NCBI GenBank assembly: GCA_009773455.1
Contig: WSXU01000028.1
Coordinates: forward strand, 62,001-126,000
Length of the DNA: 64,000 nt
Source of the DNA: Bacteroidota bacterium
Lineage (GTDB): Bacteria; Bacteroidota; Bacteroidia; Bacteroidales; Lentimicrobiaceae
Reading direction: 5' to 3'
Part shown: positions 8,454-54,125 of the stretch, piece by piece
How the letters are laid out: every line of letters begins with the position of its first letter
How positions within the stretch are numbered: position 1 is the first letter of the stretch
Made by a program: the position numbers and the translations under genes
The notes under the pieces: model-generated
Seen by the model: the letters and a program-made list of their open reading frames with translations, nothing else
Database searches by the model: none
Told to the model about the DNA's origin: nothing

Positions 8454-8454
8454 A

Positions 8455-9639: not shown

Positions 9640-10386
9640 ATGAAACCAGTTTTCTTTCTTTTAATGATAGTCTGTCTGATCACGGCTTGTAACCCAGCCG
9701 ATAATTCAGGCGCCGGTGTATCCGGATTGCAGGATATGCATAAGGTGGAAGTTAAAGAAGTTCTTCAGACCGCCAATTATACCTATTTGCGGGTAACCGA
9801 AAAGGATATTGAAAACTGGCTGGCATTACCCAGGATGAATGCCAGGGCGGGTGATATTTATTACTACAGGAACGGATTTAAAATGACTGATTTTGAAAGC
9901 AGGGAATTAGGAAAAACGTTTAAAACAGTATATTTTCTTGAATCCATCAGTCAGTCTCCTGATCTGGTAACAAATGACCCGGCTGAAAATCCGCACTCAC
10001 CGGTCGCCCAGCTCCCAGATTCATCGTCAAAGGTTCAATACAGGGCGGCAGTTAAGGTAGAAAAGGAAGAGGTTAAGACTGAGAAGGCCGACCAGGGAAT
10101 AACCATAGCAGAACTCTATGCGAATAAAGAAAATTATTCTGGTAAAACTGTCAGGATTCGTGGAAAAGTTACCAAGTTCAACGATGCAATCCTGAAAAGG
10201 AACTGGATTCATATACAGGATGGTACCGAATTTGCGGGCAAATTTGATCTGACTGCAACTACCACAGATGAGACTGTAGTCGGCAATTCGGTCATCCTTG
10301 AAGGCAGGATATCACTCAATAAGGATTTTGGTTATGGATACGCTTATGAAGTTTTGATGGAAGACGCCGTTTTACTGGAGAAATAG
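9640..10386 (+). CDS. NrfJ-like lipoprotein with C-terminal OB-fold domain
   Basis: 248 residues. A lipoprotein signal ends in LITAC (lipid Cys17). Residues about 30-105 have the NrfJ-type pattern: a VEVKEVLQTANYTYLRV start, W.A.P, GD, and FKMTDFESRELGKTFKTVYF. After a low-complexity linker rich in K/E, residues about 150-248 read as an OB-fold nucleic-acid/solute-binding type (ITIAELYANKENYSGKTVRIRGKV ... WIHIQDG ... VILEGRI). NrfJ accompanies nrfHAI in some nitrite-ammonifying bacteria; NrfI is a CcsBA cytochrome c synthase, and a CcsBA fusion lies two genes downstream. A role in cytochrome c assembly is therefore likely but not proven. Confidence 0.65.
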   Translation: MKPVFFLLMIVCLITACNPADNSGAGVSGLQDMHKVEVKEVLQTANYTYLRVTEKDIENWLALPRMNARAGDIYYYRNGFKMTDFESRELGKTFKTVYFLESISQSPDLVTNDPAENPHSPVAQLPDSSSKVQYRAAVKVEKEEVKTEKADQGITIAELYANKENYSGKTVRIRGKVTKFNDAILKRNWIHIQDGTEFAGKFDLTATTTDETVVGNSVILEGRISLNKDFGYGYAYEVLMEDAVLLEK

Positions 10387-14680: not shown

Positions 14681-15715
14681 ATGAACCTTATCAGGTCCGG
14701 AATTCTTACTTCTAAGATCATTACTTTGCTGATCTGGTCAGTTTACTGCGGCTCTGTATATGCCCAGGAGTCCGGCTCCGCTGCAACTTCGGCAATGACC
14801 GGTTATCCGCAGGTAGAATGGATTAAAAGCTGGCCATCAAAAGAAAGCAGTCAGCATTCCAGAAGTTTCAAAGAATACCTGAATTCCATTTTCTTTGGGA
14901 TTCAACGGCCCGAATTGCTTAATCCGGTTGCGGTACTGGCTGAAAATCCCGCCGGTTTTATGATTTTGGATCAGGGCAATCAAACGATGTTCCAGGTTGA
15001 TGATGAAGTGGGTGATATCCCCCAATCTGTGCTGAAGTCAGATTTTCAGATGTCTTCACTGGTTGGACTATGTTATGGTCCTGATTCAAGTATTCTGTTT
15101 ACAGATTCCAAATCGGGAAGTATTTATAAAATGGTCCCCGGAAAGAAGAAACTCAGGCTGCTGAATGACACGCTTAAACTTGATCAGCCTACCGGAATCG
15201 CCTTTGACCCGGTCAAGAAAGAGATATTTGTCATTGAAACCAGATCGCACCGGATATGTGTACTGAATGAAAACGGGACACTGATCAGAAGAATAGGGAT
15301 CAGGGGCAACGGTACAGGGGAGTTTAATTATCCGACACACCTTTGGATCAGTAAGCAGGGCAATATATATGTAACGGATGCAATGAACTTCAGGATCCAG
15401 GTATTGGATCACGAAGGCAGGGTTATCTCTGTTTTCGGGGAGGCAGGCGATGCCACCGGCTATCTGGCAAGGCCCAAGGGAATTGCAACCGATTCGTCCG
15501 GTAATATTTATATTGTTGATGCACTCTTTCATGCGATTCAGGTTTTCAATATTAAAGGGGTGTTTCTGTATAGTTTTGGAAAGCAGGGACATGGTAATGG
15601 TGAGTTCTGGATGCCTTCAGGAATCTGCATTGATGATCATGATTTCATCTATGTGGCGGATACCTATAATTCCAGGATACAGGTTTTTCATTTAATTCAG
15701 AAGGAGAAAGAATGA
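14681..15715 (+). CDS. Secreted NHL-repeat beta-propeller protein
   Basis: 344 residues with an N-terminal signal peptide (hydrophobic residues about 10-24, cleavage after VYAQ). From about residue 85 to the end it has six NHL/6-bladed propeller repeats, each with a GI..D..G.IYV.D...H.IQV pattern, for example GIAFDPVKKEIFVIETRSHR, GNIYVTDAMNFRIQVLDHEG, GNIYIVDALFHAIQVFN and FIYVADTYNSRIQVFH. NHL propellers act as binding platforms. The gene overlaps the 11-haem cytochrome start by 4 bases (ATGA), so the two proteins are made together. A second NHL protein sits beside cytochromes at 21590. Confidence 0.85.
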   Translation: MNLIRSGILTSKIITLLIWSVYCGSVYAQESGSAATSAMTGYPQVEWIKSWPSKESSQHSRSFKEYLNSIFFGIQRPELLNPVAVLAENPAGFMILDQGNQTMFQVDDEVGDIPQSVLKSDFQMSSLVGLCYGPDSSILFTDSKSGSIYKMVPGKKKLRLLNDTLKLDQPTGIAFDPVKKEIFVIETRSHRICVLNENGTLIRRIGIRGNGTGEFNYPTHLWISKQGNIYVTDAMNFRIQVLDHEGRVISVFGEAGDATGYLARPKGIATDSSGNIYIVDALFHAIQVFNIKGVFLYSFGKQGHGNGEFWMPSGICIDDHDFIYVADTYNSRIQVFHLIQKEKE

Positions 15716-17373
15716 GAAGAATAATTATATTTAACCTGATGGTTTTTGTCTGGTTGCCTTTGATGGTTAGTGCCCAGTCAATTGTCAATACAAAGCACAA
15801 CCTGTCGGTGTCGGGACCCGGCACTGTTAAGGCTGTCAGCGAAGCGGAGATCTGCCTTTTCTGTCATACGCCCCACAACAGCCGGCCAGTCGCTCCATTG
15901 TGGAACAGGAATGATCCCGGAGCTACCTATACACTTTACACAAGTTCCATGCTTCAGGCATTGCCGGGCCAGCCGGATGGAACGTCCATTCTTTGTCTTT
16001 CGTGTCATGATGGAACGGTAGCTTTGGGAAGTGTGCTGAGTCGTCCAGCTACCATCGGAATGACGACAGGGACTTTTATGCCGGCCGGAGTCAGCAACCT
16101 TACGACCAACCTGAGGAATGATCATCCCGTTTCTTTTACTTATGATGCGGCACTTGCAACGGCCGACGGGCAGCTGAAGCCACCCGGTGGTATTACACCA
16201 CCGGTTTCACTTGCGAATGGTAACGATCCCCACAAAAACATTTATTCCGATTTCCTGGTAGCTACCTCCCAGAATTCGAACCTCTGCAACAGTTGCCATC
16301 AGCGCACTTACTGGACGTCCAGCACCCACAGCTCTTCGACCAGGACTTGGAACGGTGTAGCCCCCGATCCCTGGCCTTACACCGATCCCGCTATGACTAC
16401 GGTTGCCCAGAATGCCTGCGAAAGCTGCCACAATCCGCACAACTCAGGCGGGAACCTGATGTTGCTGAAATATCAGGCTGAAGAGAGCAACTGCAATGAT
16501 TGTCACAATGGCAATGTCGCTTCAAAAAACGTTACCGCCCAGTTTGCGAAAACATACAGGCACAATGTTACAGGTTACACCAATGTGCATGTGGCCAATG
16601 AGCCTGCTGCGGTTACAACCATGCATGTCGAATGTGTTGATTGCCATAATCCTCATGCTGCACTTAACCAGACGGCAGTAGCTCCCAATGTCAACGGATT
16701 TTTAACCGGAGTTAAAGGGGTGAATCAGAGTGGGGCAGCCGTTAATCCTGCAGTTTATTCCTATGAGATATGTTACCGTTGTCATGCAGGCAGTCCGGGC
16801 GCACCTGCTGCAGTAACTCCCAGGGTAATTGTACAGAATAATGTTCGCCTTGAATTTGCACCCGGGAATCCATCCTATCATTCTGTGGCAGCTGCCGGTG
16901 TAAATACGAATGTACCCAGCCTGATTGCCCCATGGACCACTTCCAGCCGGCTATATTGCACCGATTGCCATGCCAGCGATGGCGCCAGTTCACCTGCCGG
17001 ACCACACGGGTCAATTTATCCGCATATCCTGAAACGGCAATACTCCACAGCAGACAATACCACCGAATCAGCTGCGGCATATGCCCTCTGTTATGGATGT
17101 CACAACCGTACATCCATTCTGAACAATTCCTCTTTCGGTGAACACAATCTGCATATAGTGGGTGAGCGAACCCCATGCAACACCTGTCACGACCCCCACG
17201 GCATCAGCAGTACCCAGGGAAACAGTACCAATAATTCAAACCTGATTAATTTCTGGACAACAATCGTAACCAATAGTTCGGGTGGTATAAGGCGGTTCGA
17301 CGATCAGGGACTCTACAGGGGTCGCTGTTATCTGACCTGTCATGGCGAAAATCATAACCCATTGAGCTACTAA
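15712..17373 (+). CDS. Multihaem c-type cytochrome (10 CXXCH plus one CX3CH)
   Basis: 553 residues with signal peptide (cleavage after LMVSAQ). Haem motifs in order: CLFCH (48-52), CLSCH, CNSCH, CESCH, CNDCH, CVDCH, CYRCH, CTDCH, CYGCH, CNTCH and a C-terminal CYLTCH (539-544), a CX3CH variant. Many are followed by NPH or TPHN, as in doubled-CXXCH cytochromes. Free histidines are plentiful for bis-His ligation. The protein is periplasmic or exported; no lipobox is present. The first 150 residues are clearly homologous to the 4-haem cytochrome at 20825 (shared ICxxCHTPHN, APLWN, YTLY, GQPDG, LCLSCHDGTVAL, NDHP, YDAALA.ADG). It is translationally coupled to the NHL protein and followed 21 bases later by the haem-sensor kinase. 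Confidence 0.9.
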   Translation: MRRIIIFNLMVFVWLPLMVSAQSIVNTKHNLSVSGPGTVKAVSEAEICLFCHTPHNSRPVAPLWNRNDPGATYTLYTSSMLQALPGQPDGTSILCLSCHDGTVALGSVLSRPATIGMTTGTFMPAGVSNLTTNLRNDHPVSFTYDAALATADGQLKPPGGITPPVSLANGNDPHKNIYSDFLVATSQNSNLCNSCHQRTYWTSSTHSSSTRTWNGVAPDPWPYTDPAMTTVAQNACESCHNPHNSGGNLMLLKYQAEESNCNDCHNGNVASKNVTAQFAKTYRHNVTGYTNVHVANEPAAVTTMHVECVDCHNPHAALNQTAVAPNVNGFLTGVKGVNQSGAAVNPAVYSYEICYRCHAGSPGAPAAVTPRVIVQNNVRLEFAPGNPSYHSVAAAGVNTNVPSLIAPWTTSSRLYCTDCHASDGASSPAGPHGSIYPHILKRQYSTADNTTESAAAYALCYGCHNRTSILNNSSFGEHNLHIVGERTPCNTCHDPHGISSTQGNSTNNSNLINFWTTIVTNSSGGIRRFDDQGLYRGRCYLTCHGENHNPLSY

Positions 17374-17394: not shown

Positions 17395-18852
17395 ATGAGA
17401 AATTTTAGTTTCCGGGTTAAAATTGTGGTAACCATTGTAGCGGTGGTCTCCCTGTTCTCCCTGGTTTCATTTACAGTATTCAATATTTTTCTCAGAAATA
17501 AACTGCTTACAACCACAGAAGAAACATACAACCAGATCAATCTTCTCAGAGACCAGTATTACTTTACCATCAGCCAGCACGATGGCCGAATCATCAAATC
17601 AATGCTTAAAAACATTGAAAAAGACAAGGATGTGCTTCGTACATTCCTCGTCGATTCAGGGTTGAATGTGGTATATCCTGAAAACTATGCTGCATTGTCA
17701 GGTGACACGGCAAGTTTCAGGGAATTATTTGCGGAGGAAAAAAACATATCCATCAAGCCATACAACAAGGATAAGAATCCGTATTACCGGGTTTTTATCA
17801 GGATGCAGAATAACAAGGCCTGCTATTCCTGTCACAGCCCCACTCAAAAAAATCTTGGTATGATTGTGATGGATTTGTCTAGTCACGAAACCCAGGGCAT
17901 CATAGCTTTTACCAAACGGTTTAGCATTTTTTATACGCTGTTTATTCTCTTATCTATATTTGGATTGGTTGCATATCTGCATTTCAAATACATTAAGAAA
18001 TCCATAAAGCAGTTCAGATCCACCATTTACCGGATAAACCGCGGAGAGCTCAGTGCCAGGCTCGAGATTCCGGAAGTCAGGGAACTGGGCAGTCTGGGAA
18101 AGAATTTCAATGAGATGCTGGAAACTTTTGAGAGAACGCAGAAAGAACTTCAGCTATATCATCAGAAGGAATTGCAGAATTCACAAAAACTTGCCACCAT
18201 CGGAGAGATGTCGGCCAGGATAGCACATGAAATCAGGAATCCCATCACTGGCATTTCCAGGGCGATGGAAGTCATCGTTTCAGAGATGAAAGATACTGAT
18301 AACAAACCCATACTGGAAGAAATTCAGCGGCAGGCAAATCGCGTGAATCAGGCGATTTCAAACTTGCTGCGATATTCGAGATCCAAGGACATATACATGC
18401 AACCGGGTGATGTAAATGAAACGGTCAGATCATTGGTGTTTTTCCTGAAAAATCAGGCGCATGACAAGGAGGTGGAATTTATTATGAATCTGGGGGAGAA
18501 TTTGCCAGTGGTCTCATATGATCAGGAATTGATTGAAAATGTATTGCTTAACCTGAGTTTTAATGCCATGCAGGCTTTTGCAGAGAGAGGAACCATTACT
18601 TATTCTTCCATGTTTGATCCGGTCGCCAGGATTGTGATTCTCTTAGTTGCTGATAACGGAAGCGGCATTCCTCAGGAAGCAGGTCAGGAAATTTTTAAAC
18701 CGTTTTTTACAACCAGGACAAAAGGTACTGGCCTGGGTCTGGCGATTTCGAAAGACATTGTTGAAAAGCATGGTGGTGAACTATGGTATGAAAATAATGC
18801 AGGGCCGGGTTGTACATTTTTTATATCATTACCCGCATATGCAGTATCTTAG
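17395..18852 (+). CDS. Membrane histidine kinase with periplasmic c-type haem motif
   Basis: 485 residues. A transmembrane helix at about 8-33 is followed by a periplasmic domain (34-172) carrying CYSCH (residues 143-147), a covalent haem c site. A second helix (about 176-198), a HAMP domain and a coiled coil lead to a HisKA domain with the H-box ARIAHEIRNPI (His278) and an ATPase domain (N-box NVLLNLSFNAMQAF, G1 DNGSGIP, G2 GTGLGLAI). The haem would let the kinase sense periplasmic redox state or a gas/ligand (inference). It lies between the 11-haem cytochrome and the sigma-54 regulator, which is probably its partner. c-haem sensor domains are known in some metal reducers. Confidence 0.88.
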   Translation: MRNFSFRVKIVVTIVAVVSLFSLVSFTVFNIFLRNKLLTTTEETYNQINLLRDQYYFTISQHDGRIIKSMLKNIEKDKDVLRTFLVDSGLNVVYPENYAALSGDTASFRELFAEEKNISIKPYNKDKNPYYRVFIRMQNNKACYSCHSPTQKNLGMIVMDLSSHETQGIIAFTKRFSIFYTLFILLSIFGLVAYLHFKYIKKSIKQFRSTIYRINRGELSARLEIPEVRELGSLGKNFNEMLETFERTQKELQLYHQKELQNSQKLATIGEMSARIAHEIRNPITGISRAMEVIVSEMKDTDNKPILEEIQRQANRVNQAISNLLRYSRSKDIYMQPGDVNETVRSLVFFLKNQAHDKEVEFIMNLGENLPVVSYDQELIENVLLNLSFNAMQAFAERGTITYSSMFDPVARIVILLVADNGSGIPQEAGQEIFKPFFTTRTKGTGLGLAISKDIVEKHGGELWYENNAGPGCTFFISLPAYAVS

Positions 18853-18957
18853 TTTGTCAGAATCCGGATTTCTGGCATTGCCGGTGATGGGTGACCCTGT
18901 GAGTCCCGGCCTGTCAGGTAAACCATCATCAGGCTGCTGTAATTAAAATTGTTAACG

Positions 18958-20373
18958 ATGAAACAGTTAAAAATTCTGATCATTGATGATGAAAAGCTGA
19001 TCCGCTGGTCACTTGAAAAGCACCTCACGGCGAAAGGCTATTCTGCATTCTCTGCCGAAACCGGAGAAGAAGGGGTCAGGCTTTTTGATTTGCACCATCC
19101 TGAAGTTGTTTTTGTCGATAATAAACTTCCAGGGATGCAAGGGCTTGATGTAATTTTGAAGCTTAAATCGCTGGATGATGAAACGGCCATTGTTTTTATG
19201 ACAGCCTACGGATCAATTGAAACGGCAGTAAATGCAATGAAGGCCGGTGCAGCAGAGTATATTAACAAACCGTTTTCCTTTGAGGAAATTGATGTTATCC
19301 TGGAGAGCATTAAAACAAAGATTAAGATCAGCAAGGAGATACAATTGTTGCGAAGGCAGCAGAAAGACGTTGTAACTTTTGACCACATCATCGGTGATAC
19401 CCCTTTGTTCAGGCAGATTATCCAGCTTGCAAAAAAAATATCGAGAACCAAGACCACAACCATTCTGCTACTGGGTGAAAGTGGTACCGGTAAGGATATG
19501 TTTGCTCATGCCATTCACAACGAAAGTACCCGAAATGAAAAACCCTTTGTAACGATCAATTGTTCCTCGCTGCCTGAATCTCTTCTGGAAAGCGAGTTGT
19601 TTGGTCATGAGAAGGGAGCTTTTACAGATGCCCGGCAATTGAAAAAGGGGCTGTTTGAAATTGCCGAAGGGGGTACAGTATTTCTGGATGAAATCGGTGA
19701 AATCAACCAGGCAACACAGATTAAATTGCTTGGCGTACTTGAGAACAGGGTGGTACGACGGTTGGGCGGCACAGTAAATATACCTGTTGATATCAGAATT
19801 ATTGCCGCTACGAACAGGGATCTGAAAAAAGCAGTTGATGAGAAATCCTTTCGCGAAGATTTGTATTACAGGTTGAAGGTATTTCAGATTACCCTTCCGG
19901 CTTTACGGGAGAGACTAGAGGATATTCCGATACTGGCCGACTATTTTATCAGGCACTATAATCAGCAGTTCCAGAAGAATATCAAGAACATCAGTGATAC
20001 GGTCAGGCAGTTGCTTATGAAATATCACTGGCCGGGTAACATCAGGGAATTGAGGAATGTGATAGAGCGGGCGGTAATCCTTGAATCAATGTCGTATCTT
20101 CAGTCTGAAAGTCTCCCGGGAGAGATTGTATCCCTGAGTGAGAACAGAATGAGCAGAAGCCTGCATTCAGAGGATATTCCTGTTTCTGTTGAGCGGAATC
20201 ATCTGCCCTTCGAATTAAATATCCCGTCCGAAGGTGTTTCTCTTTATGAAATCGAGAAACAGATCATTTTGCAGGCACTTGAAACAACAGGATACAATCA
20301 GACAAAAACTTCTGTTTTACTTGGAATTTCAAGGGATACACTAAGATATAAGATGAAAAAATATGATCTGTAA
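18958..20373 (+). CDS. NtrC-family sigma-54-dependent response regulator
   Basis: 471 residues from the ATG at 18958. The receiver domain (1-120) has ILIIDDEK, the phospho-acceptor Asp54 in VFVDNKLPG, and MTAYGS / NKPF. The AAA+ domain (about 140-370) has Walker A GESGTGKD, the sigma-54 contact loop as GAFTDA (standard form GAFTGA), Walker B TVFLDEIGE and R-finger region RLKVFQITLPALRERLEDIP. A Fis-type HTH closes the protein (EKQIILQALETTGYNQTKTS, then GISRDTLRYKMKKY). It activates sigma-54 promoters when phosphorylated. It lies 105 bases behind the haem-c kinase, and twin palindromes start 2 bases after its stop codon. Confidence 0.93.
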   Translation: MKQLKILIIDDEKLIRWSLEKHLTAKGYSAFSAETGEEGVRLFDLHHPEVVFVDNKLPGMQGLDVILKLKSLDDETAIVFMTAYGSIETAVNAMKAGAAEYINKPFSFEEIDVILESIKTKIKISKEIQLLRRQQKDVVTFDHIIGDTPLFRQIIQLAKKISRTKTTTILLLGESGTGKDMFAHAIHNESTRNEKPFVTINCSSLPESLLESELFGHEKGAFTDARQLKKGLFEIAEGGTVFLDEIGEINQATQIKLLGVLENRVVRRLGGTVNIPVDIRIIAATNRDLKKAVDEKSFREDLYYRLKVFQITLPALRERLEDIPILADYFIRHYNQQFQKNIKNISDTVRQLLMKYHWPGNIRELRNVIERAVILESMSYLQSESLPGEIVSLSENRMSRSLHSEDIPVSVERNHLPFELNIPSEGVSLYEIEKQIILQALETTGYNQTKTSVLLGISRDTLRYKMKKYDL

Positions 20374-20764: not shown

Positions 20765-20779
20765 TGGCACATGTTTTGA
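20765..20779 (+). promoter_or_regulatory. Sigma-54 promoter of the 4-haem cytochrome gene
   Basis: TGGCACATGTTTTGA matches TGGCACG-N4-TTGC at TGGCAC and TTG with exact GG-N10 spacing; the -12 box ends GA instead of GC. It lies 46 bases before the ATG at 20825 and about 350 bases downstream of the twin palindromes, consistent with activation by looping. Confidence 0.6.
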
Positions 20780-20824: not shown

Positions 20825-21451
20825 ATGAATAAATTAAACGTATTTTTCACCTGTGCATTCCTCGTTGCAGTGGTTCAATTCGGATCAGCACAAACCATTG
20901 TTGGTTCAGCACATGATTTTTCAGGTCAGAGTTGGAACACTACTACAGAAATCTGTATTGTCTGCCACACCCCGCACAATGCCGACATATCTGTGGCCGA
21001 CGCCCCACTGTGGAACCACAGCCTTTCAGCAGTGGCAACCTATACACTGTATGCCAGTGGCACAATGAACTCAGTTCCGGGTCAGCCCGACGGAAGTTCA
21101 AAACTTTGCCTGAGTTGTCATGACGGTACCGTTGCACTCGAGAATTTTGGCGGAGTCACTTCAGGTACAAATTTTATGAGCGGTGATGCTTTGATTGGAA
21201 CTTCTTTGAGTAATGACCATCCTATTTCAATTGATTACGATGCCGCATTGGCACTCGCCGATGGCGGACTTCATAATCCAGCCACAACCTCATCAGGATT
21301 GGGCGGAACCATTGCTGAGGATATGCTTATTTCAGGAAAAATGCAGTGCTCCTCATGCCACGATGTGCACAACAGTGCAGTCGGTACAAGCAGCCTGTTG
21401 CTGAAATCAAATGCAGCCAGCGCATTGTGTCTGACCTGTCATGACAAATAA
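20825..21451 (+). CDS. Tetrahaem c-type cytochrome
   Basis: 208 residues with a signal peptide (about 1-22, cleavage after FGSAQ). Four haem motifs: CIVCH, CLSCH, CSSCH and CLTCH, with HTPHN and DVHN after the first and third. It is homologous over nearly its whole length to the first 150 residues of the 11-haem cytochrome at 15712, so it looks like the compact version of that module. It is exported and soluble as far as can be seen. It probably shuttles electrons in the periplasm or at the surface. A sigma-54 promoter precedes it and a strong terminator follows, so it is likely transcribed alone. Confidence 0.9.
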   Translation: MNKLNVFFTCAFLVAVVQFGSAQTIVGSAHDFSGQSWNTTTEICIVCHTPHNADISVADAPLWNHSLSAVATYTLYASGTMNSVPGQPDGSSKLCLSCHDGTVALENFGGVTSGTNFMSGDALIGTSLSNDHPISIDYDAALALADGGLHNPATTSSGLGGTIAEDMLISGKMQCSSCHDVHNSAVGTSSLLLKSNAASALCLTCHDK

Positions 21452-21486
21452 AAAAGACATATTCGTTTTATTACGGATATTTTCAG

Positions 21487-21512
21487 AGGGGCGGAGATTT
21501 TCGCCCCTTTTT
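21487..21512 (+). terminator. Rho-independent terminator after the tetrahaem cytochrome
   Basis: AGGGGCG and CGCCCCT form a 7-bp stem with an 8-base loop, followed by TTTT. It begins 36 bases after the stop codon and separates this gene from the downstream NHL/conduit operon. Confidence 0.8.
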
Positions 21513-21566
21513 CCTGCTTAAAGCATATATCAACATATATAAATGTATAATAAGCGGGCGAAAGTT

Positions 21567-21574
21567 TAAATTTG
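21567..21574 (+). promoter_or_regulatory. Candidate -7 promoter element for the conduit operon
   Basis: TAAATTTG is a perfect TAnnTTTG box 16 bases before the ATG at 21590, so the leader would be only about 10 bases. There is no clear -33 TTTG. The AT-rich core TATATAAATG lies just upstream at 21536-21545 and is shared with two adhesin upstream regions. Confidence 0.4.
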
Positions 21575-21589
21575 CCAAAAAATACCCGA

Positions 21590-22735
21590 ATGACCCTGAG
21601 ATATCTCTTTCTTATAGGTGTGATTGCCATCACCTCTTCCTGTTCCAGAACCACTTATTCAGGAGCAGAAACAGATAACCTGATCATCTTTCCTTCTCCC
21701 CCCGACACTGCCAGGATACAGTTCCTGACAAGAATAAGCGGGTCGCAGGATATTACCGGCAACCGCAATTCATTCTCCAGGTTTTTATTCGGGGAGGCGG
21801 AAAATATACCGATCAACAAACCTTACGGCATTGCTGTACACAACGGTAAGATCCTGATCTGCGACACTTTTATCCACGGCCTGGTTAAAATCGATATGGC
21901 GCAAAATACCTTCGAGCAGTTTATTCCCGGAGGGAAAGGGGAACTGAAAGTTCCTGTAAATTGTTTTGTCGATGAAAAGGGATACCTCTACATCGCTGAT
22001 TCGGAAAGAAAGCAGATTGTTGTTTTTGATGATCAGGGTAACTATTTCAACAGCTTTGGTGAATCAGAGAATTTTAAACCGGTTGATGTTTTTGCCCATG
22101 ACAATAAAATCTGGGTTTCAAACCTAGCCGGTCATCAGGTACATGTCTATTCAGGCGACTCCACATTCGAATTACTTAACACTTTCCCGGAGCCGGGTAC
22201 AGGGGAGACCAGCCTGTTTTCGCCTACCAACCTGTTTGTTCACGACAGCAATGTTTATGTAACCGATTTCGGCGATTTTAAGATCAAGAAGTATTCATTC
22301 GACGGCGAATTTATAAGTTCATTCGGGACCTACGGGCAGGGAATTGGACAACTGGCAAGGCCCAAGGGCATCGCTGTTGACCGGGATGCAAATCTTTTTG
22401 TTGTTGATGCCGGTTTTGAGAACGTTCAGATTTTTAACCGTGAAGGCAAACTGCTGATGCATTTCGGTGGCAGTTACAAAGGTCCCGGCGATATGTGGTT
22501 GCCGGCAAAGGTTGTTCTCGATTACGACAACCTCAGGTTTTTTGAAAAATTCGTTGATCCCGCCTATAAATTAAAGTACCTCGTTTTTGTGACCAATCAG
22601 TTTGGCCCTGATAAGTTCAACGTGTATGGTGCTGTTGAGCCTTTAAAAAACTTTAAGTCTGAGAAATCACAGGCAGGCGGAAAGAATATAAAGAAGCCGA
22701 AAAAGAGAAGTAAAGTCAAACAACCCATGTTTTAA
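21590..22735 (+). CDS. NHL-repeat beta-propeller lipoprotein
   Basis: 381 residues from the ATG at 21590; this start gives a proper lipoprotein signal (VIAITSSC, lipid Cys18), whereas the upstream in-frame TTG sits inside the -7 promoter box. From about residue 65 to 310 there are six NHL-type blades (KPYGIAVHNGKILICDTF, GYLYIADSERKQIVVFDDQG, SNVYVTDFGDFKIKKYSFDG, RPKGIAVDRDANLFVVDAG and others). The C-terminus is Lys-rich and basic. It heads an operon with the 5-haem lipoprotein, the beta-barrel and the 9-haem cytochrome. It may scaffold the cytochromes on a membrane leaflet (inference). It is the second NHL/cytochrome pairing in the window. Confidence 0.87.
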   Translation: MTLRYLFLIGVIAITSSCSRTTYSGAETDNLIIFPSPPDTARIQFLTRISGSQDITGNRNSFSRFLFGEAENIPINKPYGIAVHNGKILICDTFIHGLVKIDMAQNTFEQFIPGGKGELKVPVNCFVDEKGYLYIADSERKQIVVFDDQGNYFNSFGESENFKPVDVFAHDNKIWVSNLAGHQVHVYSGDSTFELLNTFPEPGTGETSLFSPTNLFVHDSNVYVTDFGDFKIKKYSFDGEFISSFGTYGQGIGQLARPKGIAVDRDANLFVVDAGFENVQIFNREGKLLMHFGGSYKGPGDMWLPAKVVLDYDNLRFFEKFVDPAYKLKYLVFVTNQFGPDKFNVYGAVEPLKNFKSEKSQAGGKNIKKPKKRSKVKQPMF

Positions 22736-22776
22736 AAGTCAACAGTTTTTAATCCGGATTTTAAGCAAAAGAAATT

Positions 22777-23367
22777 TTGAAGACATTAATCCATAAATCA
22801 TTTAAACAAGGCAGGATGTTCCTGCTTTTTGTGTTGATGATTGTTATGGTATTTCAATCGGGATGCTCTTCAACCAATCATTATAAAATTCTCTCCTTCT
22901 TTTTCGACGGTGTTCCTGATCCTTCTGCAGGGGATTTGCAAAAAGGGGATTCAATAAAAGCAGTAGATACAACTTCATTCGCCCAGAATGCCGTGAACAG
23001 GCCGGTTGATATGACGCATCTTCATCCCCCGTATAAGGATAAGCAGTGCAGCACCTGTCATGATCAGGGAAGTATGGGAAAACTCAGGGTTGCGCAGCCG
23101 GGCCTTTGCTACCAGTGCCACGACGATTTCGCCAACCGTTTCAAAGTCCTGCACGGACCTGTTGGCGGGGGGCAATGTACCATGTGCCACAGTCCGCATA
23201 TGTCAGTAAACGAAGCGTTTGCAATCCGCACTGGTCAGGATCTCTGCCTTCATTGTCATGAAACAGACCAGGTTATGGCAAATGAATCACACAGGGATAT
23301 AGGTGATACCGGCTGTACCAAATGCCATAACCCGCATGGGGGAAACGACAATAACCTTTTACGCTGA
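22777..23367 (+). CDS. Pentahaem c-type cytochrome lipoprotein
   Basis: 196 residues using a TTG start at 22777, which supplies the basic n-region (MKTLIHKSFKQGR) expected before the lipoprotein h-region; an ATG at 22816 would begin directly in the hydrophobic stretch. The lipobox FQSGC places the lipid on Cys30. Haem motifs: CSTCH, CYQCH, CTMCH, CLHCH and CTKCH, several followed by SPH or NPHGG as in doubled-CXXCH families. It ends 4 bases before the start of the outer-membrane barrel. A small lipid-anchored multihaem protein beside a barrel fits the periplasmic or plug component of a porin-cytochrome conduit. Confidence 0.88.
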   Translation: MKTLIHKSFKQGRMFLLFVLMIVMVFQSGCSSTNHYKILSFFFDGVPDPSAGDLQKGDSIKAVDTTSFAQNAVNRPVDMTHLHPPYKDKQCSTCHDQGSMGKLRVAQPGLCYQCHDDFANRFKVLHGPVGGGQCTMCHSPHMSVNEAFAIRTGQDLCLHCHETDQVMANESHRDIGDTGCTKCHNPHGGNDNNLLR

Positions 23368-23371
23368 AAGG

Positions 23372-25339
23372 ATGAAAGGACCCGGTAAATACGCGCTGAT
23401 GCTGCCGATTCTGTTGGCCTTGTCGATTAATGCGTATTCTCAGAACGGGAATAATGCCCTGTATTTCTGGAAATTTCATGCTGTTTCGGGTGAAGCCAGG
23501 CTGAACGGCCTTTACAGGGAGCAGGAAAGGACAGGTCGTGATTTCAACGAGTATCAGAAAAGTGCTTACCTGTCGGGCGGATTGATGCTCAATGCACAAA
23601 GTTCCATACTGCACCAGAATTTCCTGATGCTGAACCTCAATGCCGGATATTTCCCGGAAACGAGCCGCGACAACTTTATTGTAGTTCCTGACCAGTCTGA
23701 AGTCCGGACAACGAAGAAACTCGGATTCGATGCCACTTTTCTGAAACATAAGAAAATCACACTCAACGTATTCGGAAATTATGATGAGAGTTATTCTTCG
23801 CGCGAAAATCTTACCGATATAAAGTCAGTGAGTAAGATTGCAGGGGCTGAGCTGGGTTACAGCAACAGCTACCTCCCTTTATCGATGAAAATTCAACGCA
23901 GGAACTGGAATGAGGAGGAGATAAAGACAGGAAGAAAGTACTCACTTGACCAGAAATTATTTGAAGCCCGGTTGTCGAGGTCATTTTCAAAACGTGATAA
24001 AAGTGAACTTAACTTCTCACACGATGAAAATGTAAACGTGAACCAGAACTTGCTGCGGGTTGCCAGCACCATCGATCATATTGAGTTTTTCAATTCATTG
24101 TACCTGGATTCCGGTCATGATTACAATCTCATTACAAGGGTTTCTGATTTCATCCAGTCGGGGAATTCGGACCTGAACCGTTTTCAGGCCAGCGAATATC
24201 TGCAGTTTCAGCTACCCTTGAACTTGTCGCTTTACAGCAATTATAATTTTTACAACATCACCCAGCAATCGGGCGACCTGAAGCAACACAGTGTAAACTC
24301 CAGTTTAAGTCATAAACTATACAAAAGCCTTCAATCCGCAATAAATCTGGATGTCAATAGCATAAAACATTCTGTATATAAGGAATTCAATACCAAAGCG
24401 GGGATTGAACTGAACTACTCCAAGAAGATTCCGACCGGACAGTTTATGATGTCCTACCGGTTCGACCGCTATCACCAGGATTATACTTCTGATCCGGTAG
24501 AACTGAATATAACCAACGAGCAATATACCTTGTCCGATAGTAAAATTGTGCTTCTCAGGCTTCCCGACGTACATCTTTCCTCTGTTGTGGTCAGGGATAT
24601 AACCACAACGCTGACTTATCAGAACGGACTGGATTATATATTGATTGAAAGAAACAGGTACATTGAAATCAGGCGGATCCCCGGAGGTGCTATCCCCGAC
24701 AACGGACCTGTCTTCATTGATTACACGGCAAATCAGCCGGGTTCTTACAGCTACGATGCGAATGCACATGTCTTTACCTCTGGAATTTACCTGCTGAATA
24801 GTCTGCTGTCATTAAATTACCGGTTTTCGACGCAGGACTATTTAAATCTTGACAGGACCGAGTTTGTTACATTAAACTATTACACCCAGCATGTTTTCGG
24901 ATTCAGACTCGATTTTAAGTTTATTAACGCCGGAGCGGAATACGAGGATTATAAAAGCTCTATTCTACCATACAGGATGCTGAAATATTATGTGAACTTC
25001 CAGAAAAATCTGGGAAGTAAGGCAACGGTAATGCTGAACTGGAATATGCAGGATTATAAAATGCTGGATGAGCCCGTCATAAAGTACCAGAAATACATGG
25101 ACCTTACCGGTAGGGTAACGTATTCCATTTTCAGGCAAACTAGTTTCAATACGGATGTGATGTACAGGAAGCAGACTGGCCGGGGCATCGAACTTAACCT
25201 TCTGACTGCCAGGAGTGAAATTACATCCTCGGTCAACAGACTTTACTTTTCACTTGGAGTTGAACTTTACAGGCGTAATTATGTGGGTGAAAGGATAAAT
25301 TTCAAAGGTTGTTATGCAAAAATTGTCAGAAAGTTCTAA
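23372..25339 (+). CDS. Outer-membrane beta-barrel protein of a putative porin-cytochrome conduit
   Basis: 655 residues from the ATG at 23372. A signal peptide (ALMLPILLALSINAYSQ) is followed almost entirely by alternating-polarity beta strands (KITLNVFGNYDESYSS, ALSLYSNYNFYNI-like, ATVMLNWNMQDYKM, RLYFSLGVELYRRNYV), with a C-terminal Phe as in many outer-membrane proteins. A small inserted domain near residues 400-465 has GLDYILIERNRYIEIRRIPG and PVFIDYTA. No CXXC motif typical of MtrB/PioB was seen and only one Cys is present. The 5-haem lipoprotein lies upstream and the 9-haem cytochrome begins 2 bases after the stop, the layout of electron conduits. Homology to a named barrel family could not be established by eye. 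Confidence 0.75.
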   Translation: MKGPGKYALMLPILLALSINAYSQNGNNALYFWKFHAVSGEARLNGLYREQERTGRDFNEYQKSAYLSGGLMLNAQSSILHQNFLMLNLNAGYFPETSRDNFIVVPDQSEVRTTKKLGFDATFLKHKKITLNVFGNYDESYSSRENLTDIKSVSKIAGAELGYSNSYLPLSMKIQRRNWNEEEIKTGRKYSLDQKLFEARLSRSFSKRDKSELNFSHDENVNVNQNLLRVASTIDHIEFFNSLYLDSGHDYNLITRVSDFIQSGNSDLNRFQASEYLQFQLPLNLSLYSNYNFYNITQQSGDLKQHSVNSSLSHKLYKSLQSAINLDVNSIKHSVYKEFNTKAGIELNYSKKIPTGQFMMSYRFDRYHQDYTSDPVELNITNEQYTLSDSKIVLLRLPDVHLSSVVVRDITTTLTYQNGLDYILIERNRYIEIRRIPGGAIPDNGPVFIDYTANQPGSYSYDANAHVFTSGIYLLNSLLSLNYRFSTQDYLNLDRTEFVTLNYYTQHVFGFRLDFKFINAGAEYEDYKSSILPYRMLKYYVNFQKNLGSKATVMLNWNMQDYKMLDEPVIKYQKYMDLTGRVTYSIFRQTSFNTDVMYRKQTGRGIELNLLTARSEITSSVNRLYFSLGVELYRRNYVGERINFKGCYAKIVRKF

Positions 25340-25341
25340 TC

Positions 25342-26283
25342 ATGGGAAAATCTCTGTTTATATATTCACTCCTGCCTTTTATATCCCTGTTCGGGTTGGT
25401 ATTACAGGAGTCCGTTGATCTTACTGGTAACAGCGAAGTCAAAGACCAGATCCACTCAGGTCTGGTTACAGAGGATCCTAAATGCCTGGATTGTCACAGC
25501 GATCTTATTGAAAGTGCGTTTCAACACAAGCCGGCATCGGCGTCATGTTCTGAATGTCATCAGGTGAACATAACCGATCATACCGTGAATGGTGCAAGGG
25601 GTTTAATGCTCAGCGCTGAGGTTCCTCAGTTATGCTATTCCTGTCATGGTGATCTGAAGCAGATTATTGATACTTCCAAAAATATCCATCAGGCAGTACT
25701 TGCTGAGGGTCAATGCACCATTTGCCATTCGCCGCATTCTTCTGACGAGAAAAAGCTGCTCGTTACCGGGCAGAAAAAACTTTGTCTGAGTTGTCACAAT
25801 AAGGATATTTCGGAAGATGGCAAAAAAGTGGTTAACATTAAAAAACTGATTTCTGTAAGCAAGGTCATACATCCACCGGTTGAGAACAGCGGATGTGTTG
25901 TCTGTCATCAGCCCCATGCTTCATCAAACAATTATCTGTTAATCAGTGCTTTCCCGAAGGGTAATTATGCGAAGGCAACCCTGGATAATTTTGCTTTTTG
26001 CTGGGAATGCCACGACAGCGATCTGCTTGAGGTGTCAAATACTACCTCTGCGACCAACTTCAGGGATGGTGACAGGAATCTGCACTTTGTACACATGAAT
26101 GCTGAAAAAGGGCGGAGTTGCGTCATGTGCCACAATGTCCATGCTACAATGAATGAGCATCTGATTGAAACCAAAGTGAAATTTGGTGAATGGGAATTGC
26201 CGGTGAAATTTACCCCTTCCGAAAAGGGTGGATCCTGTTTCCCGGGGTGTCATGCTGAAAAATCATACAATAACGTTGATTGA
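25342..26283 (+). CDS. Multihaem c-type cytochrome (8 CXXCH plus one CX3CH)
   Basis: 313 residues from the ATG at 25342. An N-terminal hydrophobic segment (SLFIYSLLPFISLFGLVL) acts as signal or anchor; no lipobox is seen. Haem motifs: CLDCH, CSECH, CYSCH, CTICH, CLSCH, CVVCH, CWECH, CVMCH and a C-terminal CFPGCH (299-304), a CX3CH variant like that closing the 11-haem protein. Spacing follows the doubled-CXXCH pattern with SPH/QPH/NVH after every second motif. It is directly coupled to the barrel gene (2-base gap). By position it is either the periplasmic or the outer-surface terminal cytochrome of the conduit. Confidence 0.9.
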   Translation: MGKSLFIYSLLPFISLFGLVLQESVDLTGNSEVKDQIHSGLVTEDPKCLDCHSDLIESAFQHKPASASCSECHQVNITDHTVNGARGLMLSAEVPQLCYSCHGDLKQIIDTSKNIHQAVLAEGQCTICHSPHSSDEKKLLVTGQKKLCLSCHNKDISEDGKKVVNIKKLISVSKVIHPPVENSGCVVCHQPHASSNNYLLISAFPKGNYAKATLDNFAFCWECHDSDLLEVSNTTSATNFRDGDRNLHFVHMNAEKGRSCVMCHNVHATMNEHLIETKVKFGEWELPVKFTPSEKGGSCFPGCHAEKSYNNVD

Positions 26284-26440: not shown

Positions 26441-29400
26441 ATGTTGTCTCATCCATCCGTGGATACACGGGGTATTTTGGTGTTGGCCAGGAAATTGTTA
26501 TTTCCCGGCCTGCTGTTGTTTTCTTATTGTATCAGTGCACAAAAGCCAAAGGAAATTCCTGAGAATTCAGCCTACGACATCGCCATCAGGAATGCAGATA
26601 ATCTGCTGATGGCAGGATCTTACCTTCGTTCCATCAATGAATATGAAAGGGCCTGGGTTCTTTATCCCCGGCAAAAGTATCCTGAAAAGAAGATAGATCA
26701 GATCTATAAAACCATAGCCAATCTGCAACTTACGCCCAGGTTGTTTGGTGAAGCGGTTAAAGCCGGTGACAGTTGCTTCAGTGCCGGAGATTATAAAAAT
26801 GCCAATATTGCTTATTTTAATGCGGTTAGCCTCAATCCCGATGATGCTTATGTAAAGGAGAGACTGACCCTTATTTCGAAGCAATTCGATGATCCTGAGA
26901 ATGAAACCAGGTACCGGATAGTCCTCATTCATGCCGGAAAATCGCTTGAAAAGTCGCACTTTGCCAGGGCTGTCGACTTCTACCGACAAGCCCTTCTGAT
27001 GAAACCTGACGAAACCTGGCTGGTCAGAAAGATAGATGAAGTGAATGCCCTCAGGGATAAGAAAGCTTCAGCCATGGATGCTTATACCAGGCTGCTTGAT
27101 GAAGCTGACCATCTCCTGGAGCAGAAAAAGCTGGCTGAAGCCCGTGAAGAATATGTAAAGGCATCATCAATAAAGCCTAAGGAGAATTACCCGGCTGCGA
27201 AAATATTCCTGATTGATCATCTGCTGGCATTTGAATATACGGGTCAGCAAACCTATGCTTCCCTGATAAAGGATGCGGACATGTTTTACAAACTGGAGGA
27301 CTTTGAGAATGCAGGAATTCATTACCAGCAGGCATTGAACCTTCAGCCCGGCGAACAGCATCCCAAAAATATGCTCAGGAAAATTACACACAACAATATT
27401 CATGGTGACACCTATCTTTCGAGTTATGAAAGCCCTGTAATCAATGCCGATATCCTGGCAATGGCCGGGGATAATGAGGCTGCCGTGATCGGTTACCGCC
27501 GGTGCCTCGATCTGTTTCCCGATGATCCTTATTTGTTGTCCAGGATAAAGGAATTGTCCAAAGTATCGGGTGATGGCAATGGTCCCCGTGATGCCTACCA
27601 GCTGGCCGTTGAAAATGGTGAAAAGTCTATGGCTTCATTAAATTACAGCAAGGCATTGACCGAATTCAGATACGCTTCCAGGTTAAAGCCTGATGAGTCA
27701 TACCCGAAAGCAAAGATGGAAGTATTGCAACAGCTGATTGCTCAGGAAACAGCCGAAAAACAGAATGCTTCCGCCGAAACTGCGCACATCGGAAAGGAAG
27801 AAGCCAAAGAAAGTCCGCCTGTTTTGCCGGTTGAAAATCAATCTGAGCCAGCAAATGCTCCTGTTGATCAGCTTCAGGGGGAGGCGGTTGCCTTGTCGGA
27901 CAAAAAATCCGATAACATGGTTCTGGTACCGGATAATTATCAGGCTCTGATTGATTCAGCGGACCATGCTTTCGCTGAAAAGAATTACACACTGGCAATC
28001 AGCGCTTATGATGCTGCGTTGAAATGCAGGCCCGAAGAAAAATACCCCCGTGAGAAAGCGGTGGAATGCAGGTTGCTGATCGATGAGTTGAACAGAGCAC
28101 AGGATGGGTACGCTCAGCTTATTGCATCTGCCGATAATTATTTCAATACCAAGGATTATCAGGCGGCTTTGAAAGCCTTCAGTGCTGCCCTGGAGATCAG
28201 GAAGGAAGAAATTTACCCGAAGCAGCAGATTTCGGCCATCAATGCCATCATGGAGAAACAAAAAGAAGTACTTGTCGCTGAAGCTTCAAAACCTTTGGAG
28301 ATGTCCCCGGTGAATGCAAGTTCTTCCGGAAAACCCGGGCCGGAAAAGGTTACACCCCCGGAAAAGAAAACCCGCACGAATTCACCACCGGTCAAACAGC
28401 CGGGTACTGACGACGGGAATTACAATAAGGCCATTGAATTTGCCGATAATTCATACAATGACAAGAAATATGCCCAGGCACTGAATGGCTACAGCGCTGC
28501 ACTGAGGCAGCGGCCCGGCATGAAATATCCTCAGGAAAGGATCGACCTGATCAGAAATCTGCTGAAAGTCTCACAGGATAAGTACAATCAGATCATCCTT
28601 GCCGGTGATGATGCTTTCGTTAATGAGGATTACACAGGAGCAAAAGACCTCTATGAATCCGCCCTTGAACTGATGCCCGGGCAAAAATATCCACAGGCAC
28701 GGATTTCCGCCATCAATGCCATTGTCGGCAAGCAACTCGCTGCGCGGGAGGGATACAATCGGGCCATTGTTTTTGCCGATCAGTCCTTCGACGCGGGGAA
28801 TTATACGGAAGCCTTGTCGGGATATCAGTTTGCTTCCGGTTTGTTGCCCGGGGAAAGTTACCCAAAGGAGAGGATTCTTGTCATCAATAACCTGCTCGGG
28901 CAATCAAAGGAGCAGCTGCTCAGTTATCACAAAGCCATTGCAGAAGCCGATCGTGCCTACCAGGCCATGGATTATCCCAAAGCACTCAGCGGATACGAAA
29001 CAGCGCTTTCCGTCAGACCTTCGGAAGTGTATCCGAAACAAAAAATAGCCGCCATCAATGTTACGCTGGGTCAGCTGAAGGCAAGGAAGGATAAGTATAA
29101 CACCTGTGTTGAAAACGGAGATCTCGCTTTTGGAGAAAGGGATTATGTTGCGGCAATTACAGCCTATAAAGCTGCACTGGATGTTTATCCTGCCGAATCA
29201 TACCCGAAAGAACGAATTGAAGCGGTAAATGCAAAGCTGAAAGATCTGAAAGTGATCCAGGATAACTATTCCAGGGCTGTTTTCATGGCTGAAAAGGCAC
29301 TGGCAGCCAAAGATTATTCGTCGGCAATGGCATTTTTTGAAACGGCTTCCGGTTATAAGCCGGATGAAATATACCCCAGAGAACGGATATTGGAGATCAG

Positions 29401-30112
29401 CCGTATTATTGCCGGAAACAGGGAGAAACTGGACAGACAATACAACGATTACCTTGGGCAGGCTGAATTATTTTTTGCCGGCCAGAAACTGGAGGAAGCA
29501 CAGAAAGCCTATAAAATTGCATCCATGATAAAGCCTGAGGAGTCTTATCCGAAACAGCGGGCTGATGAAATTGCTTTACTGATCACTCAAAGGGCCGGAA
29601 TGATCAGGGAATCCTATAACAAGGCCATTGCTGAGGCAGATAAAGCATACAAATCTCTCATACTTGATGAAGCGATCAGACTGTATACCAGTGCCCTTGA
29701 AATCAAACCCGGAGAACCTTATCCCGGACAAATGATTTACAGAATCAGAAAATATATGATGCAAAACTCAGTGGTGGAAGTAACCTCTGAGCAATTTGTT
29801 TTAAAAAACAATTCGGAAAAATCATTCAGTTTCAAACCTGTTGATGTGAGGCTTCGCAGTAAGAATTACCTTGTGATAAGGGCACGGAGCAGCAGTGCTA
29901 TTCAGCCAAAACTCTATGTTAATTTTGGTCGTGACAAAATGAAGAACGGAGGTATGGTTCTGAAAACCATCAATTCAGAATTGATTTATGATTTCGTTGT
30001 GAATGTCAGTATGCAGGATAAATGGTTCAGGGAGGATAACAACTGGCTGAGTTTATACTCGGAGAACGGGGATATTGAAGTGTCGTCTATCAGGATTTCA
30101 CAGGGCAGATAA
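26441..30112 (+). CDS. Large exported protein of about 57-residue TPR-like repeats
   Basis: 1223 residues. A long basic n-region and hydrophobic core (LLFPGLLLFSYCISAQ) form a signal peptide. About a dozen or more repeats follow, each of the type YNKAI..AD..Y....Y..AL..Y..AL...PG..YP..RI..I, roughly 57 residues long, as in YNKAIEFADNSYNDKKYAQA and YSRAVFMAEKALAAKDYSSA. Two low-complexity linkers rich in E, P, S and K interrupt the array near residues 430-490 and 610-650. The last 110 residues are not repetitive and look beta-rich (SFKPVDVRLRSKNYLVIRA ... NNWLSLYSENGDIEVSSIRI), like a carbohydrate-binding or DUF-type domain. TPR-like arrays bind proteins; the partner is unknown. It sits between the cytochrome island and the adhesin array. 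Confidence 0.75.
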   Translation: MLSHPSVDTRGILVLARKLLFPGLLLFSYCISAQKPKEIPENSAYDIAIRNADNLLMAGSYLRSINEYERAWVLYPRQKYPEKKIDQIYKTIANLQLTPRLFGEAVKAGDSCFSAGDYKNANIAYFNAVSLNPDDAYVKERLTLISKQFDDPENETRYRIVLIHAGKSLEKSHFARAVDFYRQALLMKPDETWLVRKIDEVNALRDKKASAMDAYTRLLDEADHLLEQKKLAEAREEYVKASSIKPKENYPAAKIFLIDHLLAFEYTGQQTYASLIKDADMFYKLEDFENAGIHYQQALNLQPGEQHPKNMLRKITHNNIHGDTYLSSYESPVINADILAMAGDNEAAVIGYRRCLDLFPDDPYLLSRIKELSKVSGDGNGPRDAYQLAVENGEKSMASLNYSKALTEFRYASRLKPDESYPKAKMEVLQQLIAQETAEKQNASAETAHIGKEEAKESPPVLPVENQSEPANAPVDQLQGEAVALSDKKSDNMVLVPDNYQALIDSADHAFAEKNYTLAISAYDAALKCRPEEKYPREKAVECRLLIDELNRAQDGYAQLIASADNYFNTKDYQAALKAFSAALEIRKEEIYPKQQISAINAIMEKQKEVLVAEASKPLEMSPVNASSSGKPGPEKVTPPEKKTRTNSPPVKQPGTDDGNYNKAIEFADNSYNDKKYAQALNGYSAALRQRPGMKYPQERIDLIRNLLKVSQDKYNQIILAGDDAFVNEDYTGAKDLYESALELMPGQKYPQARISAINAIVGKQLAAREGYNRAIVFADQSFDAGNYTEALSGYQFASGLLPGESYPKERILVINNLLGQSKEQLLSYHKAIAEADRAYQAMDYPKALSGYETALSVRPSEVYPKQKIAAINVTLGQLKARKDKYNTCVENGDLAFGERDYVAAITAYKAALDVYPAESYPKERIEAVNAKLKDLKVIQDNYSRAVFMAEKALAAKDYSSAMAFFETASGYKPDEIYPRERILEISRIIAGNREKLDRQYNDYLGQAELFFAGQKLEEAQKAYKIASMIKPEESYPKQRADEIALLITQRAGMIRESYNKAIAEADKAYKSLILDEAIRLYTSALEIKPGEPYPGQMIYRIRKYMMQNSVVEVTSEQFVLKNNSEKSFSFKPVDVRLRSKNYLVIRARSSSAIQPKLYVNFGRDKMKNGGMVLKTINSELIYDFVVNVSMQDKWFREDNNWLSLYSENGDIEVSSIRISQGR

Positions 30113-53729: not shown

Positions 53730-54125
<396 letters not shown>

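Follow-up and report, generated by a model that had tools for sequence, protein, structure and literature searches.

The locus described here raises the question of whether a cluster of multihaem cytochrome genes in a Bacteroidota bacterium encodes a route by which electrons could leave the cell and, if so, of what that route would be made. It lies in a window of 64,000 nucleotides (contig WSXU01000028.1, positions 62,001 to 126,000) of a 4.8 Mb genome, and all coordinates below are positions in that window. The original prediction, made for 20825-26283, had proposed a porin-cytochrome conduit in which a 655-residue barrel, possibly of a new family, is flanked by a 5-haem and a 9-haem cytochrome. 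In our judgement the ~17,000-base stretch from ~9.6 to ~26.3 kb is probably an accessory island for extracellular electron transfer that joins an MtrAB-like conduit to an OmcE-type filament, with that degree of confidence covering both the conduit and the filament. The computed support comprises the fold of the barrel, the homology of its downstream partner to MtrA, the homology of a 4-haem protein to OmcE together with its haem ligands, the conservation of the cassette across genomes, and empty sites in relatives.

The cassette runs in the order NHL protein, 11-haem cytochrome, c-haem kinase and NtrC regulator (a pair that may be lacking), OmcE-like cytochrome, NHL lipoprotein, 5-haem lipoprotein, barrel and MtrA-like cytochrome (Table 1). 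Open reading frame (ORF) coordinates bore out the proposed spacing of 4 and 2 nucleotides within the last three genes, and the NHL lipoprotein and 4-haem genes were confirmed to lie 5' of this trio. For the four cytochromes, said to hold at least 29 haem motifs, we counted 27 CXXCH and two CX3CH, 29 in all. The interval itself was right in its contents and too short in its extent: the system probably begins at ~9.6 kb, and the 11-haem cytochrome, a second NHL protein, the regulator pair and a haem lyase probably belong to it. Two weightier points had also been missed, namely the OmcE homology of the 4-haem gene and the conserved, accessory nature of the cassette.

A predicted outer-membrane barrel outside known families

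As had been anticipated, the 655-residue protein was modelled as a large outer-membrane barrel, mostly of strand, by AlphaFold2 with an alignment of 20 sequences as input (mean predicted local distance difference test score, pLDDT, 86.3; predicted template modelling score 0.70). This alignment, A1, comprises the window sequence and 19 of 25 other loci from single-sequence genome searches, which are 29-60% identical to it; left out were a partial sequence (L006), the two parts of one gene with internal stops (L022 and L026) and fragments or weak hits (L023-L025). The barrel ends in Phe, and ~30 strand elements were counted from the DSSP list of the model, with 85-94 merged with 96-102 and three short strands in 406-435 excluded; the MtrB barrel has 26 strands. 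In a Foldseek search the best 50 of 764 matches were outer-membrane barrels as far as their titles tell, and among these 50 MtrB (6r2q_B) ranked fourth by E-value (2.3e-7) and first by template modelling score (TM-score, 0.44). Since 0.44 is below 0.5, we read this as likeness rather than family membership. The MtrB_PioB family (PF11854) matched nothing in the source genome and none of 38 members of the barrel family, and the protein, with a single Cys in 655 residues, has no MtrB-type CXXC, as originally stated.

Pfam and NCBIfam scans of the barrel gave no family above cut-off, with no NCBIfam model matched at all, and PDB searches with the single sequence and with the profile found no relative. 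The proposal of a new barrel family thus appears to hold as judged by Pfam, NCBIfam, the PDB and MtrB_PioB. A DMAP1_like match in the window barrel (E 0.008) and matches to five other families, each in one of the 38 members (best RVP_2, 2.8e-5; LamB porin, 0.0033), were taken as chance.

The barrel is interrupted by an insert at residues ~388-444 that carries the motif DYxL...EIxRIPGG. In A1, 7 of 33 invariant columns fall in residues 421-451, less than 5% of the length, in or at the edge of the insert. In a second alignment, A2 (the window and 37 of the 72 loci described below), 9 of 10 invariant columns lie in the insert region, partly by selection because the loci were fetched with a motif inside the insert. 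EI-x-R-IPGG is usable as a protein signature for the barrel family, by which such systems can be found. One barrel copy (G141) is in two pieces, L022 and L026, with stop codons in the joining frame.

Two MtrA-like cytochromes flank the barrel

The 9-haem protein found MtrA (6r2q_A) as its best PDB match by phmmer (E 2.3e-8; next 0.0029), and a profile of 26 homologues raised this to 1.1e-24, with the next multihaem chain at 8.4e-8. That profile was built from A4, the window and 25 of 31 homologues found in 34 chosen loci (L038, L048, L053, L055, L076 and L095 left out). GRSCxxCH and a following VH are common to the 9-haem protein and MtrA in alignment, and with the predicted structure MtrA was the sole Foldseek match below 0.001 (E 2.4e-5, TM-scores 0.43/0.50, 27% identity). 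Sequence thus makes the 9-haem protein a homologue of MtrA, and the fold, taken from a weak model, agrees. Its nine haem sites compare with ten haems expected of MtrA/DmsE cytochromes. Among them is CFPGCH, a CX3CH motif that is invariant in all 26 aligned homologues and so is probably a real haem site. Homologues gain extra haem repeats after the second haem and ahead of a C-terminal part that stays constant; at L036 and L042 the cytochrome ORFs 3' of the barrel hold 25 and 26 CXXCH. The 5-haem lipoprotein also matches MtrA (6r2q_A, E 2.9e-11). Because the DmsE model (TIGR03508) scores 65.9 bits for the 9-haem protein against a cut-off of 192.2, and far below it for the 5-haem protein too, both appear MtrA-like but outside the curated DmsE subfamily.

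The conduit originally proposed is upheld by these results, since the 655-residue protein models as an outer-membrane barrel and the 9-haem cytochrome beside it shows homology to MtrA; in addition, MtrB has the highest TM-score among the 50 matches listed, the trio is conserved, and MtrB_PioB is without a match. It could be argued instead that the cytochromes form a periplasmic electron store or a specific reductase beside an unrelated porin, given that octahaem nitrite reductases weakly match the 9-haem protein (best E 0.0029) and that the localisation of the proteins is predicted from sequence. These matches, however, are far below that to MtrA, are gone from the profile search at E 0.001 and reach E 0.28 by fold, and the gene order is conserved, so that we rejected this explanation as the leading one and regard it as very improbable.

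Surface lipoproteins of Bacteroidota carry acidic residues after the lipid Cys. Among 64 ORFs each, a lipobox was recognised in 49 of the 5-haem and 49 of the NHL lipoproteins, and there was no D or E at +2 to +6 in 36 and 47 of these, respectively, which favours the periplasmic face for both. The lipobox pattern also catches CXXCH, and the counts for the 9-haem and 4-haem proteins were left unused. Neither flanking cytochrome showed a sign of extracellular location: both are MtrA-like, and the 5-haem lipoprotein has no obvious surface-export signal.

A full-length OmcE homologue and an 11-haem protein

The best PDB match of the 4-haem protein was 7tfs (E 3.5e-28), which aligned over its full length (residues 10-208 to 12-232). 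The PDB output names this entry only "Cytochrome c"; we take 7TFS to be the OmcE filament of Geobacter sulfurreducens. The next match was 9yuq (9.1e-27, 16 chains, "putative multiheme cytochrome c"). The alignment with OmcE places all four CXXCH, together with four additional His, in register, and in 33 OmcE-like sequences (alignment A3, with 32 of the 34 chosen loci) H30, H48, H51, H99, H132, H179 and H182 are invariant, with H206 present in at least 90%. From this register with OmcE, rather than from its structure, H48, H99, H179 and H206 are the likely proximal and H30, H51, H132 and H182 the likely distal haem ligands. On the strength of the alignment, the 4-haem gene is assigned as a full-length OmcE homologue. 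Elsewhere, OmcE-like ORFs with four or five haems are also found 3' of the barrel (L040, L055, L061, L065, L071, L072 and L084), and in 18 of 58 loci the OmcE-like protein is the best window match of two or more ORFs, a few of these being long multihaem proteins with weak scores.

Residues 18-198 of the 11-haem protein match OmcE as well (7tfs, E 1.9e-31). The mean pairwise identity of this protein over 40 loci is 56%, versus 34% for the barrel, and this better conservation suggests that it may be central to how the system works.

Conservation of the cassette and points that weigh against the reading

A scan of named genome contigs with a profile from A1, in which loci were picked out by the IPGG motif, yielded 72 that carry a barrel relative; one contig holds two of them. 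According to their record titles they belong to Bacteroidota (Bacteroidales, Flavobacteriaceae, Ignavibacteriaceae and others), Calditrichota, KSB1 and others, and include four distant loci from Verrucomicrobia, Planctomycetota (two) and Lentisphaerae, three of which were aligned in A2 and are 20-21% identical. The closest named barrel relative is from a metagenome-assembled genome (MAG) of an uncultured Bacteroidales (62%, L039), and one locus, L093, comes from a named strain, Aestuariivivens sediminis S-DT1-15. With the single barrel sequence as query, matches were absent from all 18 other genomes of the same genus and present in 2 of 60 relatives (the source genome and G056), 23 of 393 genomes of the order and 2 of 395 of the phylum (the source genome and G565). 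The 23 include the source genome and two poor matches, G084 (E 2.5e-5, 69 residues, no haem ORF in the locus) and a fragment in G278.

Gene order was counted only at loci with enough sequence. A multihaem ORF lies directly 5' of the barrel in 63 of 65 loci and directly 3' in 61 of 69, the eight misses including the four distant loci, and these frequencies place the pairing of barrel and cytochromes beyond chance. The barrel and multihaem cytochromes are thus encoded and kept together, as would be expected at the gene level of a porin-cytochrome conduit. The wider cassette is also kept: an OmcE-like gene is found within ~5 kb 5' of the barrel in 49 of 53 loci, and among 27 fully flanked loci the 11-haem gene is present in 25 and adjoined by NHL protein A in 24. 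Homologues of the NHL lipoprotein match Pfam NHL in 34 of 35 cases (alignment A5 drew on all 34 chosen loci of the 72). At L095 the order is broken, with the barrel after the NHL gene and the 9-haem gene after the barrel. Further large multihaem ORFs (14, 16 and 19 CXXCH) follow the cassette at L049 and L085.

In all 58 loci with enough sequence, an NHL gene lies within ~3.8 kb 5' of the barrel. This constancy, and an insert in which invariant residues are denser than in the barrel wall (7 of 33 in A1) and which could suit a protein-handling plug, would be explained if the barrel were a secretion or assembly pore for cytochromes with the NHL proteins as chaperones. We give that explanation little chance, given the MtrA homologue encoded 2 nucleotides downstream and the strong conservation of its C-terminal haem region.

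Divergence of the barrel correlates with that of six other genes, with Mantel r ranging from 0.42 (OmcE-like gene) to 0.79 (NHL lipoprotein) over 40 loci (0 of 2000 permutations for each), which counts in favour of the reading. Several points weigh against a conduit joined to a filament, one being that this test cannot separate co-inheritance of the cassette from shared organismal history. Another is that barrel members without IPGG were missed, because the 72 loci were selected by that motif. The 9-haem profile also matches other multihaem chains at 1e-7 to 4e-4, and E-values may be flattered because CXXCH repeats are common to multihaem proteins. The 9-haem model is weak, since the best of five had a pLDDT of 78.5 and the other four, which disagree, only 45-63; against MtrB and MtrA, global TM-scores reach no more than 0.43-0.50. 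No extracellular cytochrome of the MtrC/OmcB type was recognised, and the kinase-regulator pair is present in only 8 of the 27 fully flanked loci. As to the filament, likeness in sequence does not prove polymerisation, and the very role of cytochrome filaments as conduits has been disputed (PMC11077965).

Accordingly, the OmcE-like protein could be a monomeric periplasmic or surface carrier that serves a conduit without any nanowire, an explanation in keeping with the limits of homology as proof of polymerisation, with the OmcE-like gene being the least coupled to the barrel in divergence, and with its absence from the ~5 kb upstream in 4 of 53 loci. We consider it unlikely, because homology to OmcE extends over the full length and the four CXXCH, as well as four other conserved His, fall into register. 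OmcE itself is described as having one haem whose ligand His comes from the neighbouring subunit (PMC9473688), which would also speak for assembly.

Accessory status within the genus

The stretches beside the Maf gene (8422-9060) were compared in 5 of the 18 other genomes of the same genus. In four of these (G001, G012, G018 and G005), the genes of window 53100-63882 (one missing in G018) come next after Maf, at a distance of 0.2 to ~3 kb, with no match there to any window gene lying in between. In the fifth, G011, Maf is followed by a block of S74-type genes (window 30.5-52.5 kb) and no cassette gene, on a contig that extends only ~4.5 kb past Maf. The cassette site is thus empty in four of the five genomes, and it is on these empty sites that the designation of the cassette as accessory rests. 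Whole-genome searches of the 18 found no OmcE-like protein save one weak partial match, and the haem lyase of 11115-14291 had only weak partial matches in three of the 18. All nine Paired_CXXCH_1 matches of the source genome are inside the island. The G+C content of the cassette (0.43-0.44) differs little from that of its flanks (0.45 and 0.47), so that recent transfer is neither supported nor excluded by it. A plasmid search gave no match.

Regulator pair and putative promoter

Of 22 homologous kinase ORFs, 21 retain a CXXCH motif, the exception being an ORF of 248 residues, which suggests a c-haem sensor. Sites resembling the sigma-54 -24/-12 consensus, which was used for scoring, are enriched 5' of the OmcE-like gene in 24 regulator-bearing sequences, the window included: the mean best score was 8.15 versus 6.57 (standard deviation 0.13), with 0 of 200 mononucleotide shuffles as high, and in 20 of the 24 the best site starts 41-111 nucleotides before the predicted start. 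The 29 loci without the regulator were slightly above expectation (6.98 versus 6.53, 1 of 200 shuffles), with scattered positions. A plain consensus scan of the whole window was not above chance (50 found, 66.9 expected), so that only the comparison across loci is informative. Given the conserved site, the NtrC regulator may act at the OmcE-like promoter, with the c-haem kinase and regulator together turning on that gene.

A proposed path for electrons

In the conduit-and-filament system that we favour, electrons from the menaquinol pool would reach the periplasm through NrfH- or NapC-type cytochromes, for which the genome offers candidates elsewhere in NrfHA (NrfH above cut-off) and a 499-residue NapC/NirT-like cytochrome. 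They would then pass the membrane-anchored 5-haem lipoprotein and cross the outer membrane via the 9-haem cytochrome, which, in light of its computed homology to MtrA and the predicted fold of the barrel, may be threaded in the barrel. Outside, they would be handed to a filament of the 4-haem cytochrome, provided that this OmcE homologue polymerises. The 11-haem protein, with its OmcE-like N-terminal part, likely serves the filament as adaptor, tip or base, the pair of NHL propellers likely act in anchoring or assembly, and the haem lyase would mature the cytochromes.

The same parts could run inward, with Fe(II), minerals or a partner cell as electron donor: pathways of this kind are stated to be able to work in either direction (PMC8258643), and the sequence holds nothing that fixes direction. 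The presence of NrfHA in the same genome, however, fits an anaerobic, menaquinol-oxidising respiratory chain, and inward flow seems to us quite unlikely. Extending the outward path, we speculate, tentatively and with more doubt than belief, that the island is a self-contained nanowire machine in which the MtrA-like wire in its new barrel passes electrons straight to the OmcE-type filament, with the 11-haem protein as the socket or cap joining the two and the NHL propellers as dedicated anchoring or assembly factors; by moving between lineages, such an island would make an electron exporter of an ordinary anaerobe.

Comparison with known systems

Like MtrAB, PioAB and MtoAB (PDB 6R2Q), the island encodes a large outer-membrane barrel beside an MtrA-homologous multihaem cytochrome. 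It differs from them in that the barrel lacks PF11854 and CXXC and has ~30 strands and an insert, and in having nine haems, including a C-terminal CxPGCH, two MtrA-like proteins and no recognised MtrC. The 4-haem protein resembles the OmcE nanowire of G. sulfurreducens over its full length, with eight His in register; here its gene belongs to a conserved cassette that also encodes a predicted conduit, NHL proteins and an 11-haem protein with an OmcE-like part.

Porin-cytochrome complexes without homology to known ones have been reported from gene order in Bacteroidetes and Verrucomicrobia (PMC6344600, PMC5615132), and in an anode Bacteroidetes MAG a cluster termed Bacteroidetes_1 comprises a barrel and six cytochromes with no other protein (PMC8258643). 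These too are barrels with multihaem cytochromes, called novel, and may include members of the present barrel family; in contrast to the island, no NHL protein or island is described in the accessible text, and they were compared by description rather than by sequence. OetABI is the nearest precedent for a conduit with a nanowire, with a periplasmic cytochrome, a porin and OmcS/OmcX-type genes in one cassette (PMC10553843). Its nanowire is of a different type, the terms "NHL" and "beta-propeller" are absent from the main text, and the porins were compared by description. In Desulfovibrio ferrophilus, as here, NHL proteins are encoded among multihaem cytochromes (DFE_0448-0451 and DFE_0461-0465; PMC9769857). 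In the literature as accessed, we found no description of a cassette with a barrel and MtrA-like, OmcE-like and NHL proteins. On that basis, coupling of a conduit and a nanowire in one cassette appears already known from OetABI with OmcS/OmcX, and what appears new is the combination of this barrel with an OmcE-type protein and NHL proteins.

A 2025 review (PMC12307469) counts the anchoring of cytochrome nanowires in the membrane, and the place where electrons enter them, among the challenges still open. By keeping conduit, OmcE-type subunit and two propeller proteins together across lineages, the cassette points to candidate parts and makes the question accessible to gene removal. It would also widen the range of likely electron exporters to include many Bacteroidota, Calditrichota and KSB1, which are known mainly from MAGs.

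Features of the island and neighbouring genes

Table 1. Predicted features of the island, by position in the window
Feature	Position	Strand	Basis and remarks
248-residue lipoprotein	9640-10386	+	No Pfam/NCBIfam match; between Maf and haem lyase; proposed, by position only, as a cytochrome-maturation accessory
TPR lipoprotein, 209 residues	10414-11043	+	TPR family match
Fused ResB-CcsA type cytochrome c haem lyase, 1058 residues	11115-14291	+	ResB 3.6e-25, Cytochrom_C_asm 2.3e-34
NHL beta-propeller protein A	14681-15715	+	NHL 8.4e-27; directly 5' of 11-haem gene
11-haem cytochrome	15712-17373	+	10 CXXCH and 1 CX3CH; most haems after the OmcE-like residues 18-198
Sensor histidine kinase	17395-18852	+	Family match; one c-haem motif, CYSCH, at residue 143 in the sensor part
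NtrC-type sigma-54 response regulator	18949-20373	+	Response_reg, Sigma54_activat 1e-67, HTH_8
Sigma-54 (-24/-12) promoter-like site, TGGCACATGTTTTGA	20765-20779	+	60 nucleotides 5' of OmcE-like gene
4-haem OmcE-type cytochrome, 208 residues, putative nanowire subunit	20825-21451	+	Homology; signal peptide by eye
NHL beta-propeller lipoprotein	21572-22735	+	Pfam NHL; Cys24 invariant in 35 sequences
5-haem lipoprotein, MtrA-like repeats	22777-23367	+	5 CXXCH; lipobox QSGC; ATG at 22816 probably the better start
Outer-membrane beta-barrel, 655 residues	23372-25339	+	Predicted fold, ~30 strands, insert at residues ~388-444
9-haem MtrA-like cytochrome, 313 residues	25342-26283	+	8 CXXCH and CFPGCH

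The haem lyase of the island also matches CcsB (5.2e-48), under the cut-off of that model, and has a homologue at 12 of the 72 barrel loci. The 248-residue lipoprotein had no match in the five same-genus stretches beside Maf, and Rfam and tRNA scans of the window gave no matches. Another haem lyase, CcmF/NrfE-like and below curated cut-offs, is encoded at 3656-6103, 5' of housekeeping genes. Directly 3' of the cassette is a TPR protein of 1223 residues (26441-30112), whose homologues occur at only 3 of the 72 barrel loci (L028, L029 and L039), which marks it as a lineage-specific neighbour. Beyond it, 30537-52519 holds genes for four S74 "chaperone of endosialidase" proteins next to large proteins that match no Pfam family, some apparently paralogous. 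This block has no match at the site in four same-genus genomes and stands directly after Maf in G011, as a variable hot spot for surface proteins.

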